NCBI GenBank assembly: GCA_944320725.1
Contig: CALUIM010000016.1
Location: 1-64,000, forward strand
From: an uncultured Coriobacteriaceae bacterium
Lineage (GTDB): Bacteria > Actinomycetota > Coriobacteriia > Coriobacteriales > Coriobacteriaceae
Reading direction: 5' to 3'
Length of the DNA: 64,000 nucleotides
Part shown: piece after piece, positions 21,344 through 27,518 of the stretch
Layout of the letters: the number at the start of each line of letters is the position of its first letter
Numbering within the stretch: position 1 is the stretch's first letter
Position numbers and translations under genes: made by a program
Notes under the pieces: model-generated
What the model was told of the DNA's origin: nothing
Database searches by the model: none
The model's input: the letters and a program-made list of their open reading frames with translations, nothing else

Positions 21344-21371
21344 GCCTGAATTTTTGAATCGAAATATCTGT

Positions 21372-21387
21372 TCCGCATATTTGACGT
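21372..21387 (+). repeat. Left copy of direct repeat flanking the IS30-type element
   Basis: TCCGCATATTTGACGT occurs here and again at 23031-23046, on either side of the element. Fourteen bases lie outside the inverted-repeat terminus; the last GT overlaps its first two bases. It is probably a target-site duplication. Confidence 0.75.
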
Positions 21388-23030
21388 TGATTTCCAAATT
21401 CATCGAGACGCCTCCAGCACTCAACGAAACACGTATCGGTGAGTATGGGAACCTCCCCCTCGGGGGTCGGAGAGGCCGGCCCGCGAGACCGAGGAGGCAT
21501 CATGCCAAAGAAAGCGAAGAAGGACAAAAAGAGGAGGTCGCGAGAGAGATCCTATGCAAGGCTCACGAGGCATGAGCGGCAGACGATTGAAAGGATGCTC
21601 GACCGTGGAAAGGGCTGCCGGGAGATCGCGCGCGAACTCGGCCGCGCGCCATCCACCGTGGCCAACGAGGTCGGAAGACACCGGTTCGTGACCTCGCCGC
21701 GCGCGCACCGCGGTGAGCCGGCGCCGAAGGCGGAGACGCTGGCGGCCGAATGCCCCAGGCTGGGGTCGTGGCCCCGTTGCTGCAATGGCTGCATCAGACG
21801 CAGGGGTTATGGCTGCAACAGGAGACCGCGCGTGTTCTATGGCGCCAGGGCGGCGCAGCGCGCCGCCGACGAGGAGCTCAGGGAGAGCAGGCGCGGCATC
21901 GACGAAACCGAGCAATCCGTCGCGGCCAAGCTCGACGCGATACGGGAATGCCTGCGACGCGGCCTATCGCCGAAGCAGATCGCCGCTACGCGCCCCGGCC
22001 CGGGGCTCTCAGCGAGCACCATCTACCGCTGGATCGATGCCGGCTATGCCGAGATGACCAATATGGATCTGAGGAGAAAGGTCGGTTACAGGCCGCGGAA
22101 GAAGTCCCGGGCAAGACGCAGCGAGAAGCATTCCGCACGCAGGTCGCACGACTCATTTGAAAAACTCCCCGAAGATGAGCGGGCCGGTGCTTGGGAGATG
22201 GATACCGTAGAGGGCTCGGCCTTGGATTCCGCTCGCCTGCTCACGCTCTACCACCGCCCGACGAGTTTTCAGCTGGCGATACCCATAGCCGACGGCGCCT
22301 GCGCCTCGGTCCTTGCAGGCCTCGGGCTCGTGCACGGCGTTCTTGGCGCCGACGGCATGGAGCGCGTGTTCAGGCTGGTGCTCACCGATAACGGTTCTGA
22401 GTTCGCTGACGAGCGGGCCATCGCCTCTTTGCTTTGCGAGGCGGAAGGCGAGACGAGGCTCTTCTATTGCGATCCCCGCCGGGCCGATCAGAAGGGCGGC
22501 TGCGAGAAGAATCACACCGAGGTCAGGAAGCTTCTGCCCAAGGGGCGGGGCATCAGGTTCGACCGTCTCGACCGCGCCGCCGCGGCGCTCGTCATGTCGC
22601 AGATTAACTCCGAACCCAGGGGCAAGCTTGCCTGGCGTTCGTCCTCGGAAATGTTTCTCGCCGCCTTCGGCAGCGACGCGCGGGCGATCTTGGACGCCTT
22701 CGGGATTGAGATGCTGGCGCCCGCAGGGCTCGACCTGACACCGGAATGCGTGGAGCGCGCTCGCGCAAAGAGAGGCGAGGCGCCGCTGGCCGAGTAAAAC
22801 CCCGAAAGGACGATTGAATCTAAGCCTTAAGAGCCTGTCGCGCTGAGTCTGGAAGAAAGCCGCGACGGGATGATGGCGCTTACCTCTCGAACCTATCGCG
22901 ACGCCTCCTCGCAAATCCTACACCTGCCAAAACATAAAAGGGAAACCCATTTTGGAGTCTCCCTTCTGTCTCGCTAAGTGCAAAAACAGATAATTTGCCC
23001 AAAGCGTTTCGCTAAGATAGAAAATCAACC
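21386..23030 (+). mobile_element. IS30-family insertion sequence
   Basis: The element of about 1.64 kb carries one transposase gene. Its ends are imperfect inverted repeats: GTTGATTT is identical at both ends (21386-21393 and the complement of 23022-23029), and about 18 of the first 26 positions match. Direct repeats of 14-16 bases flank the ends. The insertion lies between the tRNA-Val promoter and the DUF2442 gene and interrupts no obvious coding region. The exact outer base on the right (23029 or 23030) is ambiguous by one. Confidence 0.8.
21502..22797 (+). CDS. IS30-family transposase
   Basis: This is a DDE transposase of 431 residues from the ATG at 21502, which is preceded by GAGGAGG; an ATG 21 codons upstream lacks a better signal. 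It starts with a Lys/Arg-rich tail, then the IS30 helix-turn-helix ERQTIERMLDRGKGCREIAR and LGRAPSTVANEV. A Cys cluster (CPRLGSWPRCCNGC, then GYGC) precedes the second HTH (GLSPKQIAATRPG). The catalytic acidic residues are in AWEMDTVEGS, VLTDNGSEF and KGGCEKNHTEVR, giving D-D-E. The frame is intact, so the element may still be active. Confidence 0.95.
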   Translation: MPKKAKKDKKRRSRERSYARLTRHERQTIERMLDRGKGCREIARELGRAPSTVANEVGRHRFVTSPRAHRGEPAPKAETLAAECPRLGSWPRCCNGCIRRRGYGCNRRPRVFYGARAAQRAADEELRESRRGIDETEQSVAAKLDAIRECLRRGLSPKQIAATRPGPGLSASTIYRWIDAGYAEMTNMDLRRKVGYRPRKKSRARRSEKHSARRSHDSFEKLPEDERAGAWEMDTVEGSALDSARLLTLYHRPTSFQLAIPIADGACASVLAGLGLVHGVLGADGMERVFRLVLTDNGSEFADERAIASLLCEAEGETRLFYCDPRRADQKGGCEKNHTEVRKLLPKGRGIRFDRLDRAAAALVMSQINSEPRGKLAWRSSSEMFLAAFGSDARAILDAFGIEMLAPAGLDLTPECVERARAKRGEAPLAE

Positions 23031-23147
23031 TCCGCATATTTGACGTACGTTTAAGCGAAAACATGGCCCCGAATGGACGAATGCTCCGTCCAAGCCTGTT
23101 ATAAGATTGGGTAAAGTAGATTCCACCAATGTAGCCGGAGGTGAATC
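22798..23147. other. Right end of the IS30-type element and upstream region of the DUF2442 gene
   Basis: No gene is visible in these 350 bases. The left part up to about 23030 is the non-coding right end of the element. It holds a stem-loop at 22938-22965 (AAGGGA with TCCCTT plus inner pairs) followed on the minus strand by TTTTATGTTTT, which could terminate transcription entering the element. The right copy of the direct repeat follows. Beyond it lies a 6-bp dyad TGGACG/CGTCCA at 23074-23092. No convincing -35/-10 pair for the DUF2442 gene was found. Confidence 0.6.
23031..23046 (+). repeat. Right copy of direct repeat flanking the IS30-type element
   Basis: This copy is identical over 16 bases to 21372-21387. 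Joining the flanks at this repeat restores a continuous A+T-rich sequence upstream of the DUF2442 gene. Confidence 0.75.
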
Positions 23148-23456
23148 ATGTATATCGTTGATGACATCTGCTACGCCGGCAACCCTTGCGACAATCCCCG
23201 CGTCATCGAGGCAAAGCCTCTTGTGGGCGGTATGATGCTTCTACGCTTTTCTACAGGCGAGCTCAAGCTGTTCGACACAACGACTCTTGAAGGCAGCGCC
23301 TTTGACATCCTCGCCGATCCGGAGGTTTTCAATGCGCCTCGCGTCGAGCATGGGTTCGTATCTTGGGCAGACGGAACGGTCGATATTGCGCCGGAATACC
23401 TGTATGAACATGGTGTTACCTACTGCCAAGATGATGACGTCTTGCTAGCGGGATAA
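23148..23456 (+). CDS. DUF2442 domain protein
   Basis: This small acidic protein has 102 residues. The DUF2442 pattern is clear: an N-terminal beta-rich half with MMLLRFSTGELKLFDTTTL, then FDILADPEVFNAPRVEHGFVSW and GTVDIAPEYLYEHG. GGAGGTG lies 6 bases before the ATG. DUF2442 genes often pair with a DUF4160 gene and such pairs are suspected toxin-antitoxin modules; no DUF4160 gene is present here. The gene stands alone on the plus strand and converges on the hipA stub. Function is unknown. Confidence 0.85.
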   Translation: MYIVDDICYAGNPCDNPRVIEAKPLVGGMMLLRFSTGELKLFDTTTLEGSAFDILADPEVFNAPRVEHGFVSWADGTVDIAPEYLYEHGVTYCQDDDVLLAG

Positions 23457-23477
23457 AAAGTACCTGCTTGCAATTGT

Positions 23478-23561
23478 TCAAATTCGCTTGTAAGCGCGCC
23501 CCACGAGGACATCCTGGCCATTTTCACCCGTGGAGAGATAGACGTCTACTGAGGGGATCAC
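23478..23561 (-). pseudogene. Truncated start of a hipA-like toxin kinase gene (27 codons)
   Basis: Directly overlapping the stop of the HipB-like gene is a GTG start with AAGGAGG about six bases upstream. It reads VIPSVDVYLSTGEN then GQDVLVGRAYKRI and stops at 23478-23480. The VDVYL and VGRAY pieces match the opening beta strands of HipA kinases, where the gene normally continues for about 400 codons. Nothing HipA-like follows in any frame before the convergent DUF2442 gene. The overlap and ribosome binding site are those of an intact hipBA operon, so this is best read as a deletion remnant. The homology rests on a short segment. Confidence 0.5.
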
Positions 23562-23863
23562 ACCTGCCTCCTTACGCGTTGGGGAAGCTCATGGTCTGCA
23601 CGAATGCGCCCTATCTCGGTCTCATAGGGGTCGGTCGCCTCGATAACGCGACCGAGAATGCCGAGTGTTCGGCAGATGTTCAGCATGGTTGCGAAGCTCA
23701 CAGTAGGGTCGCCGTTTTCGATGCGCGAAAGCGTACTGCGGGAAACGGCAGCTTTTGCAGCCACCTGTTCAGAGGTGAGCTTGTGCATCTTCCGCCACGT
23801 GGCTAGGTTCTCCCCCACCTGCTTGGCGGCAAGTTTGGTTCGCATAGGGATCGGTCGCTTCAT
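23558..23863 (-). CDS. HipB-like XRE-family transcriptional regulator
   Basis: This 101-residue protein has one XRE helix-turn-helix (about residues 15-75): VGENLATWRKMHKLTSEQVA, then AVSRSTLSRIENGDPTVSF and NICRTLGILGRVIEA. The SRIENGDPTVS and LGI segments are typical of HipB-type antitoxins, which repress their own operon and neutralise HipA. The short C-terminal tail is Arg-rich (ELPQRVRRQV). An ATG 6 codons downstream is an alternative start. Only a 27-codon hipA stub follows, so it is an orphan. A 61-bp double palindrome lies 9 bases upstream of the start and is very likely its operator. Confidence 0.85.
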   Translation of the reverse strand: MKRPIPMRTKLAAKQVGENLATWRKMHKLTSEQVAAKAAVSRSTLSRIENGDPTVSFATMLNICRTLGILGRVIEATDPYETEIGRIRADHELPQRVRRQV

Positions 23864-23871
23864 GAATGATA

Positions 23872-23932
23872 ACCTAACGTCTGGTATCTAAGACACTAGT
23901 TAAGTTAGTGTAGCGTATACCAGACGTTAGGT
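23872..23932. promoter_or_regulatory. Coaxial double palindrome, likely operator of the HipB-like regulator
   Basis: An outer inverted repeat has two perfect 16-base arms (ACCTAACGTCTGGTAT at 23872-23887 and its complement at 23917-23932). An inner inverted repeat has perfect 6-base arms (ACACTA at 23893-23898, TAGTGT at 23906-23911). Both have their centre at 23902. Each outer arm is itself roughly palindromic (CCnnACGTnnGG). The site lies between the regulator start and the end of the surface-protein gene. Inference: four-site or looped binding by the XRE dimer for autoregulation. Confidence 0.75.
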
Positions 23933-23954
23933 ATATCGAGAGCTATGGAAAACT

Positions 23955-26141
23955 CTACAGGGACGTCCTCTTGCGGAGACCAGCAGCGACGAGCGCTATG
24001 CCGAAGATTCCAGCCAGCGCGCAGGCCAAAGGAGCCACATCGCCCGTGGCGGGGATGGTTTCTTCGTCCTCGGCAGGCTCTTTAGAACCGCAGACCGTGC
24101 AGACTCCGTCGATGAAATCATGGCCGGTAGCGGGGATCGTTTTGCCCTTCGCGATCACGTATCCGCAGACGGAGCAGACCGTGTCGCCCGTGTAGCCCTC
24201 CTCGGTGCAGGTGGCATTCTGCTTGCCCACAATCTCGGGCTCGTGCGTGGCATAGTCGAGCTCGTCGCCGCAGGCCTCGCATGCGTGCCAGTGGCCGCTT
24301 TCGTCGCTCGTCCACCCAGAGGCGGGCTTGTGCACGTGGTTCACGATGAGGGTTGCGGGGTCGCTCTCGATCGCCACCTGACCGGACGTCACGACACATC
24401 GGTACTGGTTGCCGTCCATGTCCATGGTGGTCGCCGGCGTGGTGTAGATGGCGCCAGTCGCACCGTCGATGTCGGTCCAAGACGCGCCGTCGTTGGCGCT
24501 AACCTGCCATTGATACGTCTTCGTGGTGCCCCCGTTCGCGGTAACGCTGAAGGACGCGGTTTCGCCCTCAATGACTTCAATGGCCTGCGGCTGATTGGCA
24601 ACGCTGAGACCCAGGGTGTTTTCAAGAGTCACCTCAACGGTGTAGGGCTCTAGCGTATCCAAATCAACCGTGGCAGTATCACCGAACTGCACCTTAGGAT
24701 CCTTGGCATATCCGACGTACAACGTGATCGTGCCGCCGTACGTTCCGTTTGGGACGTCATTCATATCCATAGGATCTGCATATGCGCATAGGGTGTAGGG
24801 CGCGCTCTGCCCGCCATCGAATACGGAAATCACGTGTATCTCATTGGATGACTGAAGGTAACAGGTGGACGAACCGTCATACGCGTCAACATACAACGGA
24901 ATGGAATAGGCCTGGTCCTCCTCATTCTGCAGCCTCGTGACAGCGCTAGATATGGCGTACACGATGATTCGTCCGTCCTCGCCCAAAACAGGGTCATCGG
25001 TCAGAGAGAGGGCGCCCTTCGCTGCGTAATAGCCACCCGAAGATTCTTGCAGCTCCAATTCGCCTGGGCACTCAAATGCGTACGCCGGAAGTGCCTTTAT
25101 CGTTCCGCTTCCGGGTATGCCGCTCGGCAGAGTTGCTCCCTCGCCGTTGTAGATGGTCCCGTTGTTGACGATGCTTCCGGCACCCGTCACGGTGCCCTCG
25201 TTGATGAGGGAGCTGCCCTCTGGGATCGTCAGCTTCGATCCCTGGCCAATCGTCAGGGTCTCGCCCTCGCCAATCGACAGGTCCTCCTGCGGGGTCACCG
25301 AGCCGTACACGGTACCGGCGTTGCCGTTGAAGTACATGCCGCCGGAAGCGCTGTTGTACTGGTGCTGGAGTGTGTGCCCCGACAGAACGGCGACCCTGTT
25401 CGCTCGGACGACGGCGTTATCGGCGAGCCTCAGGTAGAACTTTGCCGTGCCCGCGCCGCCCAATCGAGAGAAGAATATGCCGCGCGCGTCTCCCGTGGGG
25501 TACCACCCGTTCGCGGTGAGGCTGGCGCCCATCACCGTTAAAATGGCCTCGCCGCCCGGCCTTGCATAGAACATCACGGCGGTTGACTTGGGGCAGTTCG
25601 ACACGACGTTGGCGCCATCACTGATGGTCAGGTAGCTGCCGCCTCCCGTAGTCATCTTGGCACCGCTCATAAGGAAGATGCCGCCGTTGCCCCATACGGT
25701 CCCCTCGGCGATCAGCTTTCCGTCGCCAACGATGTTCAGCTCGGAATACCCGGTATCGCTGGTGACGTAGATCGGCACGCCGCTGCTGAGGTGGCTTTCG
25801 CCGGCAAGGCGAATGGTGAGCGACACGCCGGATTCGCCAAACGCGTAGATGGAGTGCGTCCCGGTTGCCAGGGAGGAACTCTTGCCGACCGTGGCGTTGT
25901 TCAGATACAGCGTGCCCTCGTCCGCATCGTAGCGAACGTTGTAGGCGGCGGTGTCCTGCGTAACGGTCAGCTCGCCGGTCGCGGGGTCCGTCGTCCAGTA
26001 GCCATCCTGCGTCGCGTCGACGGTGACGTTGCCCACTACCAGCTGTTCGGGAGCATGGTCCGCCGCCAGCGCCGTGGCGGGCAGCATCACCAGGCACAGC
26101 AGCGCCGCAGCGAGCACCGACCAGATCGTTCTTCTCGCCAT
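23955..26141 (-). CDS. Large secreted surface protein with sortase-type anchor
   Basis: This is a predicted wall-anchored protein of 728 residues. The ATG at 26141 has GGAGGT 6 bases before it and opens a signal peptide (RRTIWSVLAAALLCLVMLP, then ATALAADH). Residues ~30-350 are Gly/Ser/Thr-rich with beta-helix-like short repeats such as LTIGQGSKLTIPEGSSLINEG. An Ig-like domain follows (about 510-600, with YQWQVSANDG and YRCVV). Next come Cys-rich repeats with HWHACEACG, TVCSVCG and GVCTVCG, a type common in gut Gram-positive surface proteins. The end has IPATGD, a hydrophobic helix and RKRTSL, an LPxTG-like sorting signal with Ile for Leu. The ligand is unknown; the regulator gene just upstream may control it. 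Confidence 0.85.
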   Translation of the reverse strand: MARRTIWSVLAAALLCLVMLPATALAADHAPEQLVVGNVTVDATQDGYWTTDPATGELTVTQDTAAYNVRYDADEGTLYLNNATVGKSSSLATGTHSIYAFGESGVSLTIRLAGESHLSSGVPIYVTSDTGYSELNIVGDGKLIAEGTVWGNGGIFLMSGAKMTTGGGSYLTISDGANVVSNCPKSTAVMFYARPGGEAILTVMGASLTANGWYPTGDARGIFFSRLGGAGTAKFYLRLADNAVVRANRVAVLSGHTLQHQYNSASGGMYFNGNAGTVYGSVTPQEDLSIGEGETLTIGQGSKLTIPEGSSLINEGTVTGAGSIVNNGTIYNGEGATLPSGIPGSGTIKALPAYAFECPGELELQESSGGYYAAKGALSLTDDPVLGEDGRIIVYAISSAVTRLQNEEDQAYSIPLYVDAYDGSSTCYLQSSNEIHVISVFDGGQSAPYTLCAYADPMDMNDVPNGTYGGTITLYVGYAKDPKVQFGDTATVDLDTLEPYTVEVTLENTLGLSVANQPQAIEVIEGETASFSVTANGGTTKTYQWQVSANDGASWTDIDGATGAIYTTPATTMDMDGNQYRCVVTSGQVAIESDPATLIVNHVHKPASGWTSDESGHWHACEACGDELDYATHEPEIVGKQNATCTEEGYTGDTVCSVCGYVIAKGKTIPATGHDFIDGVCTVCGSKEPAEDEETIPATGDVAPLACALAGIFGIALVAAGLRKRTSL

Positions 26142-26309
26142 CTCGTACCTCCGTCCCATGGGCGCTCTGCCCACGTAGCGGGCCATGAAGCCATTGTTGA
26201 GGAGGAGGCACCGGCTTCCCCTACCCGACGGACGGGGCAATATGGGGAGGGTGAGGGTGTCTCACGCTGAAGTAGCCAGACAATCTTCTGTATGCGCCCG
26301 AAAGCCTGC

Positions 26310-27518
26310 CTACGCCAACATGAATTGCGCCAGATCCTTGCGGCTCGACACCCCGAGCTTGCGAAACGCGTTGGACAGGCACTCCTTCACGCGGTTCACC
26401 GAAAAGCCCATGTGCTCGGCAATCTCGGCGTTTGACCAATCGCGCGAGGCGAGCATGCAGACCGCGAACTCAGTGGTGGTGAGGTTATCCGCCACATCGT
26501 CGGCCGTCGATGGGTTGTGGACGCGCCGCCAGCCAGCGCTGAAGCGGTAGGTGATGTCGATCATGCGCTTGAAGTCGTCCGGCCATGCGGGCTTGATCGC
26601 GGCTTCGAGCATGCCGCCCAGAAGCCCGTGGTGCTCGCCGAAGGGCTGGATGAGGCCGTCCGGGCGCGCGATGTCCCAAGCGGCGAGGACGTGCCTGCGC
26701 GCCTCGTCGGTACGGCGGAGCGTCATGAGGCTCATGACGGCCGCCAGGTGCAGGTAGATGGCCGGAATAGGATAGAGCGTATCCGCCATAGCGAAAGCGC
26801 CCAGCACGATGCCGTAGCTCTGCTCGTAGGCGCCCTCGAGGTAGAGGCGGTGCGCCTTAACGTAACAGGCGAAGAGCCTAAGGCCGGACGGCAGGAGGGG
26901 AAGCAGGTCGAGCGCGGGTTGTGCGGGCTTAGGTGCAGGCAGGTGCAACAAGGCGCTCGCGGCGTTACCGATGAAGGCCGCCATGGCCGCTACCTCGGGA
27001 GGCGTATCCCCTCCCAGCTCGGAATTCATGCTGCCGAGCGCGCCATCGAGCGCGAAGCGGGCGTCGTTGATGCGACCGAGGGTGAGGTTGGAGAACGCGC
27101 AGATGAGGCAGGCGGAGAGGCGCGCCTCGGCGTCGTCGCTCTTGAGGAGCGGGGCGGCAAGGTCGCGCGCACGCTCAGCGTCGCCGGAAAAGTAGGCGAG
27201 CTCTGCCTGCGCGACGGACGCACGCGTGCCCCTCGCAAGGGAGGCAACAAATGCCTTCGTAGTTCCCGGGGAATAAGCCGTACCTATAAGCGGCATGAGG
27301 TTCTGAAAAGAGGACGTGGGACGCGGGCTTGGCGCCTGCGGCGTGGAAGCACGCTCTCCCCTGCGCGGGTCGTCGGGCTTGACCGTGCCCTCGGGAATGC
27401 GCCACGAGCCGCCAAACTTCTCAGCACCCACTATGCGCCCCTGCTTGCAGTAGCGCTGGACGAGGCGCGTCGTCACGCCCCAGCGGCTGGCCGCTTCCTC
27501 TGCCGAGATGTAGCGCAT
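26310..27518 (-). CDS. Dual-HTH regulator: MerR/excisionase-like N-terminus, LuxR-type C-terminus
   Basis: This 402-residue regulator starts at the ATG at 27518, which has AAGGGG 7 bases upstream; longer frames run into tRNA-like sequence. Residues 1-50 form a MerR/excisionase-like HTH: YISAEEAASRWGVTTRLVQR and GGSWRIPEGT. The middle (about 80-320) is Ala/Leu-rich helical repeats resembling TPRs, as in LuxR regulators with a sensory repeat domain. The C-terminal ~60 residues are a LuxR HTH: LTTTEFAVCMLASRDWSNAE, then FSVNRVKECLSNAFRKLGV. There is no receiver domain. Its stop is 168 bases upstream of the surface-protein start, so control of that gene is a reasonable guess, not shown. Confidence 0.85.
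   Translation of the reverse strand: MRYISAEEAASRWGVTTRLVQRYCKQGRIVGAEKFGGSWRIPEGTVKPDDPRRGERASTPQAPSPRPTSSFQNLMPLIGTAYSPGTTKAFVASLARGTRASVAQAELAYFSGDAERARDLAAPLLKSDDAEARLSACLICAFSNLTLGRINDARFALDGALGSMNSELGGDTPPEVAAMAAFIGNAASALLHLPAPKPAQPALDLLPLLPSGLRLFACYVKAHRLYLEGAYEQSYGIVLGAFAMADTLYPIPAIYLHLAAVMSLMTLRRTDEARRHVLAAWDIARPDGLIQPFGEHHGLLGGMLEAAIKPAWPDDFKRMIDITYRFSAGWRRVHNPSTADDVADNLTTTEFAVCMLASRDWSNAEIAEHMGFSVNRVKECLSNAFRKLGVSSRKDLAQFMLA

Follow-up and report, generated by a model that had tools for sequence, protein, structure and literature searches.

Several HipB-type regulators are known to act at inverted repeats placed before their own genes. For Escherichia coli hipBA, PMC3376134 and PMC3920265 describe HipB binding to TATCC-N8-GGATA at four sites: two half-sites 8 bp apart form each palindromic operator, and several operators stand in series before hipB. 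As measured on the O1O2 oligonucleotide printed in PMC3376134, their pitch is 28 bp. In the Legionella hipBST system, conserved inverted-repeat operators lie before the HipB gene and were bound by HipB in gel shifts (PMC10653801), and a series of inverted repeats is described for the Caulobacter hipBA1 and hipBA2 promoters in PMC7029023.

Here we analyse a 61-bp nested palindrome upstream of a hipB-like gene, found in a 64,000-nt stretch of DNA (the window) on contig 16 of a 2.07-Mb, 20-contig Coriobacteriaceae genome that is 99.5% complete. Our main reading, to which we assign a probability of about 0.87, is that this site is a hipBA-type operator region, made up of two neighbouring 24-bp operators for two HipB dimers and serving autoregulation. 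The locus shares with E. coli hipBA an XRE-type antitoxin gene placed before a HipA kinase gene, as well as palindromic operators with an 8-bp half-site gap that stand in series before hipB. It differs in its half-site (TATCC in E. coli, an 8-bp TAAYGTCT or TAACAGAA here), in the number of operators (four against the two found here), in their pitch (28 bp against 31 bp) and in its hipA, of which the window has only a truncated form. TATCC-N8-GGATA, the E. coli consensus, does not itself occur in the array, whose half-sites were listed for this comparison as TAACGTCT, TAGTGTAG, TAGTGTCT and TAACGTCT. The likeness to Legionella hipBST likewise lies in several inverted-repeat operators before a HipB gene, whereas that system, according to PMC10653801, comprises three genes and has three sites of 18 nt separated by gaps of 53 bp. 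The original prediction had set the site apart from the linear operators of E. coli, yet it resembles two E. coli-type operators in tandem. Judged by its sequence, it is a hipBA-operator-like site at a hipB-type gene, variant in half-site and pitch, in an operon that here appears to be without its toxin.

The nested palindrome and its two component operators

On the minus strand, the palindrome (23872-23932) lies downstream of a surface-protein-like ORF with its stop at 23955 and upstream of the hipB-like gene, whose ATG (23863) is 8 bp from the edge of the palindrome. In the window sequence, the outer arms (23872-23887 and 23917-23932) are complementary at 16/16 positions with 29 nt between them, and the inner arms, ACACTA (23893-23898) and TAGTGT (23906-23911), at 6/6; both repeats have their axis at 23902, so that the description of two perfect palindromes on one centre proved exact. 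A scan of the window for perfect arms of at least 12 within an 80-bp span returned 23902 as its sole axis. When the window was shuffled ten times by mononucleotide, the counts of such axes were 0, 0, 1, 0, 0, 0, 0, 0, 0 and 0, with a second arm of at least 6 on the same axis in none of the ten. Given these counts, the nested palindrome is not a product of chance, in line with the original prediction, which had called a random overlap of the two repeats unlikely. Each arm had also been called nearly palindromic by itself ('CCnnACGTnnGG'); this holds in the window, but the next relative, Olsenella sp. An293 (L037), has AATAACGTCTGA instead, and the self-symmetry is therefore probably incidental. 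A mobile element or dispersed repeat was considered and rejected, the arm occurring nowhere else in the genome at up to 2 mismatches; at 3 mismatches there were two further places, and the reversed control gave 7 matches in all.

A four-half-site geometry scan resolved the site into four copies of one 8-bp half-site, alternating in orientation and spaced by 8, 7 and 8 bp (TAACGTCT-8-CTACACTA-7-TAGTGTCT-8-AGACGTTA). On the coding (minus) strand, the upstream operator O1 (23906-23929) comprises half-site H1, TAACGTCT (23929-23922), an 8-bp gap and H2, CTACACTA (23913-23906), whereas O2 (23875-23898), beside the start codon, comprises H3, TAGTGTCT (23898-23891), an 8-bp gap and H4, AGACGTTA (23882-23875). 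Between them lies a 7-bp central segment (23899-23905) with the axis of both palindromes, 23902, at its centre. More than one palindromic site with an 8-bp gap thus precedes hipB: each operator is a 24-bp palindrome, the two are 31 bp apart centre to centre, and with the central segment and three symmetric flanking bases on each side they make up the full 61 bp. The inner half-sites are weak in the window, H2 agreeing with the outer half-site at 4/8 positions and H3 at 6/8. Against a degenerate operator pattern drawn from the window site, O2 has 0 mismatches and O1 has 2; elsewhere in the genome the pattern was found at 10 places, one with 2 and nine with 3 mismatches. A HipB regulon across the genome was rejected, as the true pattern gave 12 matches per strand versus 44 for the reversed control.

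This anatomy also accounts for the shared axis. Because two adjacent palindromic operators order their half-sites right-left-right-left, the two outer half-sites form one pair around the midpoint and the two inner ones another, and concentric inverted repeats therefore arise. The looped binding proposed for the site is accordingly not needed to explain the common axis, and with only 7 bp between them, the operators are close enough for contact along straight DNA. The other half of that proposal, cooperative binding, fares better, as two side-by-side dimers, possibly cooperative, would fit the anatomy. That the palindrome is a regulatory site of the HipB-like gene also stood up: very probably it serves this gene as its operator region.

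The hipB-like gene and its neighbourhood

The hipB-like antitoxin/repressor gene (23558-23863, minus strand) encodes a 101-aa protein with an XRE helix-turn-helix of the Cro/C1 type (Pfam HTH_3, E=3.9e-11), which NCBIfam HipB-type models match below their own cut-offs. A profile built from 48 relatives found the E. coli HipB chains 2wiu, 4yg4 and 4yg1 (E 3.4e-7 to 1.6e-6) along with Legionella HipB chains, and the AlphaFold2 model of the protein (pLDDT 93), when submitted to Foldseek, had Pseudomonas fluorescens HipB (9u9g, E=3.3e-5) as its best PDB match, followed by weaker matches to the HipB proteins of Legionella (2.7e-3) and E. coli (7.1e-3). By these matches the protein has an XRE/Cro-C1 fold related to HipB. 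A phage origin was considered and rejected, no phage record having matched the protein at E<=1e-5. The controller (C) proteins of restriction-modification systems, e.g., C.BclI and C.Esp1396I, appear to have a related XRE fold (2b5a, E=6e-4). C proteins use paired operators bound by two dimers, at a spacing that differs from the spacing here, and no restriction-modification domain was found in the hipB product and the four neighbouring proteins scanned.

Upstream and in the same direction, a surface-protein-like ORF of 761 aa (23955-26240, minus strand) ends 91 bp before hipB. It has a weak Ig_3 match, below cut-off, and close to its end an IPATGD motif and a hydrophobic tail, which we take to resemble a sortase anchor. 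A related ORF also precedes hipB in the two closest relatives (L035 and L036). No sigma-70 consensus promoter passed our scan of positions 23800-24100, and the best promoter-like hexamers differ in position between loci.

Array geometry at related hipB loci

We collected the regions upstream of related hipB genes from the family and the class (plus 40 stretches) and later from the phylum and from plasmids, and applied a motif-free scan, in which four 8-mers in forward/reverse/forward/reverse order are scored for mutual similarity under 108 gap combinations and expressed as z versus shuffles. Two subfamilies were distinguished, one with MKRP-type HipB (subfamily 1) and one with MAGRTPIPV-type HipB (subfamily 2); removal of near-duplicates (upstreams at least 75% alike) reduced them from 31 to 26 and from 22 to 18 loci, respectively. 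In subfamily 1, with the window and its near-duplicates L035 and L036 excluded, the 25 non-redundant loci peaked at gaps of 8/7/8 (mean 28.2 of 48, z 18.9). An earlier version of the scan, on 29 loci with a near-duplicate cut of 80%, had given z 19.8. The 18 loci of subfamily 2 reached z 13.2 at 8/7/8 and a top of 15.7 at 6/9/6, a combination that leaves the pitch at 31 bp and only shifts every half-site window by one base toward its own operator centre. A held-out set from outside the class, obtained after the geometry had been fixed (14 loci: 11 from genomes and three of the ten plasmid matches listed), behaved alike, 8/7/8 giving z 16.1 and 6/9/6 giving z 18.3. The half-site itself differs between the subfamilies (TAAYGTCT in subfamily 1, TAACAGAA in subfamily 2) at an unchanged pitch, and so does the recognition-helix region (SRSTLSR versus SVPTVRK, compared by eye).

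Taken singly against dinucleotide shuffles, the array was significant (p<=0.05) at 19/26 loci of subfamily 1, 13/18 of subfamily 2 and 12/14 of the held-out set; the loci that were individually non-significant (7/26, 5/18 and 2/14) count against the operator reading, as does L041, where the half-sites, judged by eye, are present with a 6-bp centre. Twenty-five loci had been left out for unaligned starts or because they encode other proteins (L014, L059, L063-L081, L087 and L101-L103); when 16 of them were tested later, L014, L101 and L102 were individually significant at p<=0.01 and the other 13 were not at 0.05; the remaining nine are the HTH-amylase fusions taken up below as a control. A further nine HipB-like loci of the class, more divergent and several of them with hipA, lacked the geometry when taken together (z 1.7, with uncertain start codons), L102 among them having p 0.01. 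As a control set, other XRE genes (L017-L034) gave only one usable upstream, and nine upstreams of genes for HTH-amylase fusions were therefore used; these had z 2.7 at 8/7/8 and their top, 5.6, at 12/12/12. Orthologous loci devoid of the repeats had been named as what would refute the prediction. The two closest relatives keep all four half-sites, and the two subfamilies and the held-out set share the geometry; at the nine divergent loci the expectation failed.

Two plasmid-borne relatives of the window HipB, on Paenarthrobacter aurescens TC1 plasmid pTC1 (L108) and Rhodococcus pyridinivorans plasmid pA (L109), have a HipA-like gene directly after hipB, and arrays with p 0.03 and 0.003, respectively.

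Conservation and symmetry of the array

The closest HipB relatives, all within Coriobacteriia, come from Enorma burkinafasonensis (L035; 97% identity), an uncultured Coriobacteriaceae bacterium (L036; likewise 97%) and then Olsenella sp. An293 (84%). Compared with L035 and L036, respectively, the window has 0 and 0 changes in the 32 half-site bases, 7 and 3 in the 23 bases of the gaps and, in an ungapped comparison, 21 and 23 in the 40 bp upstream. For HipB, the dN/dS of the window against these two is ~0.05 (0.013 over 0.27 and 0.29). The window and L036 differ at five positions of the 61 bp, four of which make up two axis-symmetric pairs: an A-T to G-C pair at the outer edge and an A/C to T/A pair at the two ends of the 7-bp centre.

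The site could also be partitioned otherwise, with each 16-nt arm being an E. coli-type operator in its own right (TATACC-N8-GGTATA) and the inner repeat a third, separate element. The upstream arm of the window does contain a perfect TATACC-TAACGTCT-GGTATA, arranged like TATCC-N8-GGATA, the E. coli consensus given in PMC3376134. The second arm, however, is without the pattern (GATACC...GGTTAT), L035 breaks it (GGAATA) and L037 does not have it, while the supposed spacer, TAACGTCT, is unchanged in L035, L036 and L037; we consider this partition extremely improbable.

The perfection of the arms calls for a further comparison, since concentric symmetry might be mainly mutational in origin: a polymerase switching templates between inverted arms would correct them toward a perfect palindrome, atop an ordinary operator pair, which is compatible with the two-operator reading. 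Homogenisation of arms by template switching is a known process (PMC8604942), and in the window the perfect arms extend beyond the half-sites into the gaps. Within single loci of subfamily 1, moreover, nested pairs resemble each other more closely than the motif alone predicts (H1:H4 z 3.8, H2:H3 z 4.5, 8-bp gaps z 3.4; without the window 3.4, 4.3 and 3.1), with less excess among non-nested half-site pairs (z 0.7 to 1.9), and over 24 bp the nested comparison reached z 5.9 versus 2.7 for the direct one. These nested-pair tests, which used 15/18 loci in subfamily 2, rest on 19/26 loci in subfamily 1; when all 26 were placed by their non-nested pairs, a placement that favours those pairs, the nested lead was small (12.9 vs 11.9 of 24), and it was reversed in subfamily 2 (11.9 vs 12.6) and in the held-out set (11.6 vs 12.9). 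The central bases of the relatives showed no symmetry excess. As the result varies with subset and placement, the extra concentric symmetry of subfamily 1 is only tentative; its cause could be template-switch correction or a two-fold symmetric protein assembly. Template switching would account for the perfection of the arms but not for the conserved geometry, and we hold it rather unlikely that the concentric symmetry is mainly its work.

A third possibility is that the palindrome acts as RNA, with read-through transcripts from the upstream surface-protein gene folding the 61 nt into a stem that hides the ribosome-binding site of hipB or ends transcription. The orientation and proximity of that gene, which ends 91 bp before hipB, would suit such a role, and the predicted fold of 106 nt spanning the palindrome has -41.1 kcal/mol (z -6.5), whereas a 61-nt transcript starting near the axis, without the long stem, reaches only -9.3 kcal/mol (z 0.1). 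The two symmetric position pairs that differ between the window and L036 would fit such a stem, one being the A-T to G-C pair, and a terminator-like 9-pair stem with the tail GTTATCATTC was detected inside O2 (1 found; shuffle mean 0.2, sd 0.6). This stem is weak, with 3 G-C pairs, and the loop limit of the scan (3-8) cannot describe the whole nested stem. Against the RNA role, no clear T-run follows the long stem, and subfamily 2 has no excess at its nested half-sites (z -0.2 and -0.1), though it has one at the gaps (z 2.6). At L044 and its near-duplicate L046, furthermore, a terminator-like, GC-rich hairpin with a T-rich tail adjoins H1 (by eye) and the array is still present (L044 p 0.003). 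On balance, an RNA function of the palindrome seems very improbable. A search of positions 22800-26400 against Rfam gave 0 matches to described RNA families up to E=1.

Loss of hipA

While the operator pair is intact in the window, the gene that would be expected after hipB is not. A tblastn search with the HipA of L035 recovered residues 1-23 at 95.7% identity (23493-23561, minus strand), a remnant that overlaps the hipB stop codon, and all other matches in the window had E>=0.15; a hipA kinase gene directly downstream is thus reduced to 23 codons. In L035 and L036, a full-length HipA of 415 aa starts at the hipB stop (Pfam confirmation was obtained for L035: HipA_C 4.8e-39, Couple_hipA 2.7e-8). 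The rest of hipA is replaced by a 2.1-kb segment (21366-23493), beyond which blastn synteny with L035 and L036 resumes at 21366. This segment carries an IS30-type transposase gene (21439-22797, model E=3.5e-31) and a DUF2442-like ORF (23148-23456, E=0.0057, below the family cut-off), the two being convergent; a search for inverted repeats found no pair flanking the transposase gene. Since hipA is cut after codon 23 and a whole-genome HipA_C search at E<=0.001 gave no match, hipB looks like an orphan in this genome.

The 53 loci of subfamilies 1 and 2, counted with near-duplicates and the window included and inner stop codons disregarded, comprised 35 with a full-length, single-piece hipA, 1 with a split gene, 14 in which it was broken or not found and 3 cut by contig ends, i.e., hipA was broken or not found in 14/50 loci with enough sequence. 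Among the 12 non-redundant loci in which hipA was broken or not found, the array was retained at p<=0.05 in 10, L085 and L097 being the others. Across these subfamilies the toxin has repeatedly been lost and the antitoxin kept; at L037, L047, L048, L010 and L091, for example, hipA is without internal or N-terminal parts and hipB is intact.

Discussion

Building on the repeats, the conserved geometry, the half-site conservation and the hipA truncation observed above, we infer how binding, cooperativity, repression and promoter position would fit together. Each operator, TARYGTCT-N8-AGACRYTA-like in sequence, would be occupied by one HipB dimer, and because the 31 bp from centre to centre correspond to about three helical turns, both operators would lie on one face of the DNA. 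The pair of dimers would then repress transcription of hipB, O2 being predicted to extend to the ribosome-binding site of this gene. In relatives with hipA, a HipB-HipA complex would occupy the same operator pair; here, with hipA truncated and no HipA_C match, the orphan HipB would repress its own gene only.

A broader proposal, which we advance tentatively and think less likely than not to be correct in full, is that the 31-bp twin-operator pitch, as opposed to the 28 bp of E. coli, is a geometric code conserved in many hipBA operons of actinobacteria. Its reader might be a HipB or HipBA assembly with two-fold symmetry, in which outer and inner subunits would select their half-sites separately, so that outer would coevolve with outer and inner with inner. 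As it is kept even where hipA has been lost, HipB alone could read it, and the orphan HipB might persist as a pure autorepressor.

What began as an odd nested palindrome thus becomes a testable rule, namely two operators in an 8-8-8-7-8-8-8 layout, which predicts hipBA operators in many actinobacteria, including the Paenarthrobacter and Rhodococcus plasmids. Among the listings and passages that literature searches gave, which covered papers outside subscription, none described such operators in Coriobacteriia or in those actinobacteria. Should a HipA-bridged complex underlie the 31-bp pitch, the pitch would offer a handle on how this complex differs from those of E. coli; if it is kept without HipA, as in the window, HipB alone may set the pitch. 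The arrays at loci where hipA is broken or not found make the fate of orphan antitoxins measurable.

Of note, the nine class members that supplied our control upstreams (L073-L081) encode a HipB-like HTH fused N-terminally to an alpha-amylase catalytic domain, in proteins of 506-566 aa; among the 8 of 31 literature matches listed for such a fusion, no title dealt with the subject. PF00128 is present in 9/9, and most carry a HipB-like tail, DPxxSELGxIG...GVPKRVRK. From their sequences, these fusions look like an antitoxin domain captured by a sugar enzyme.
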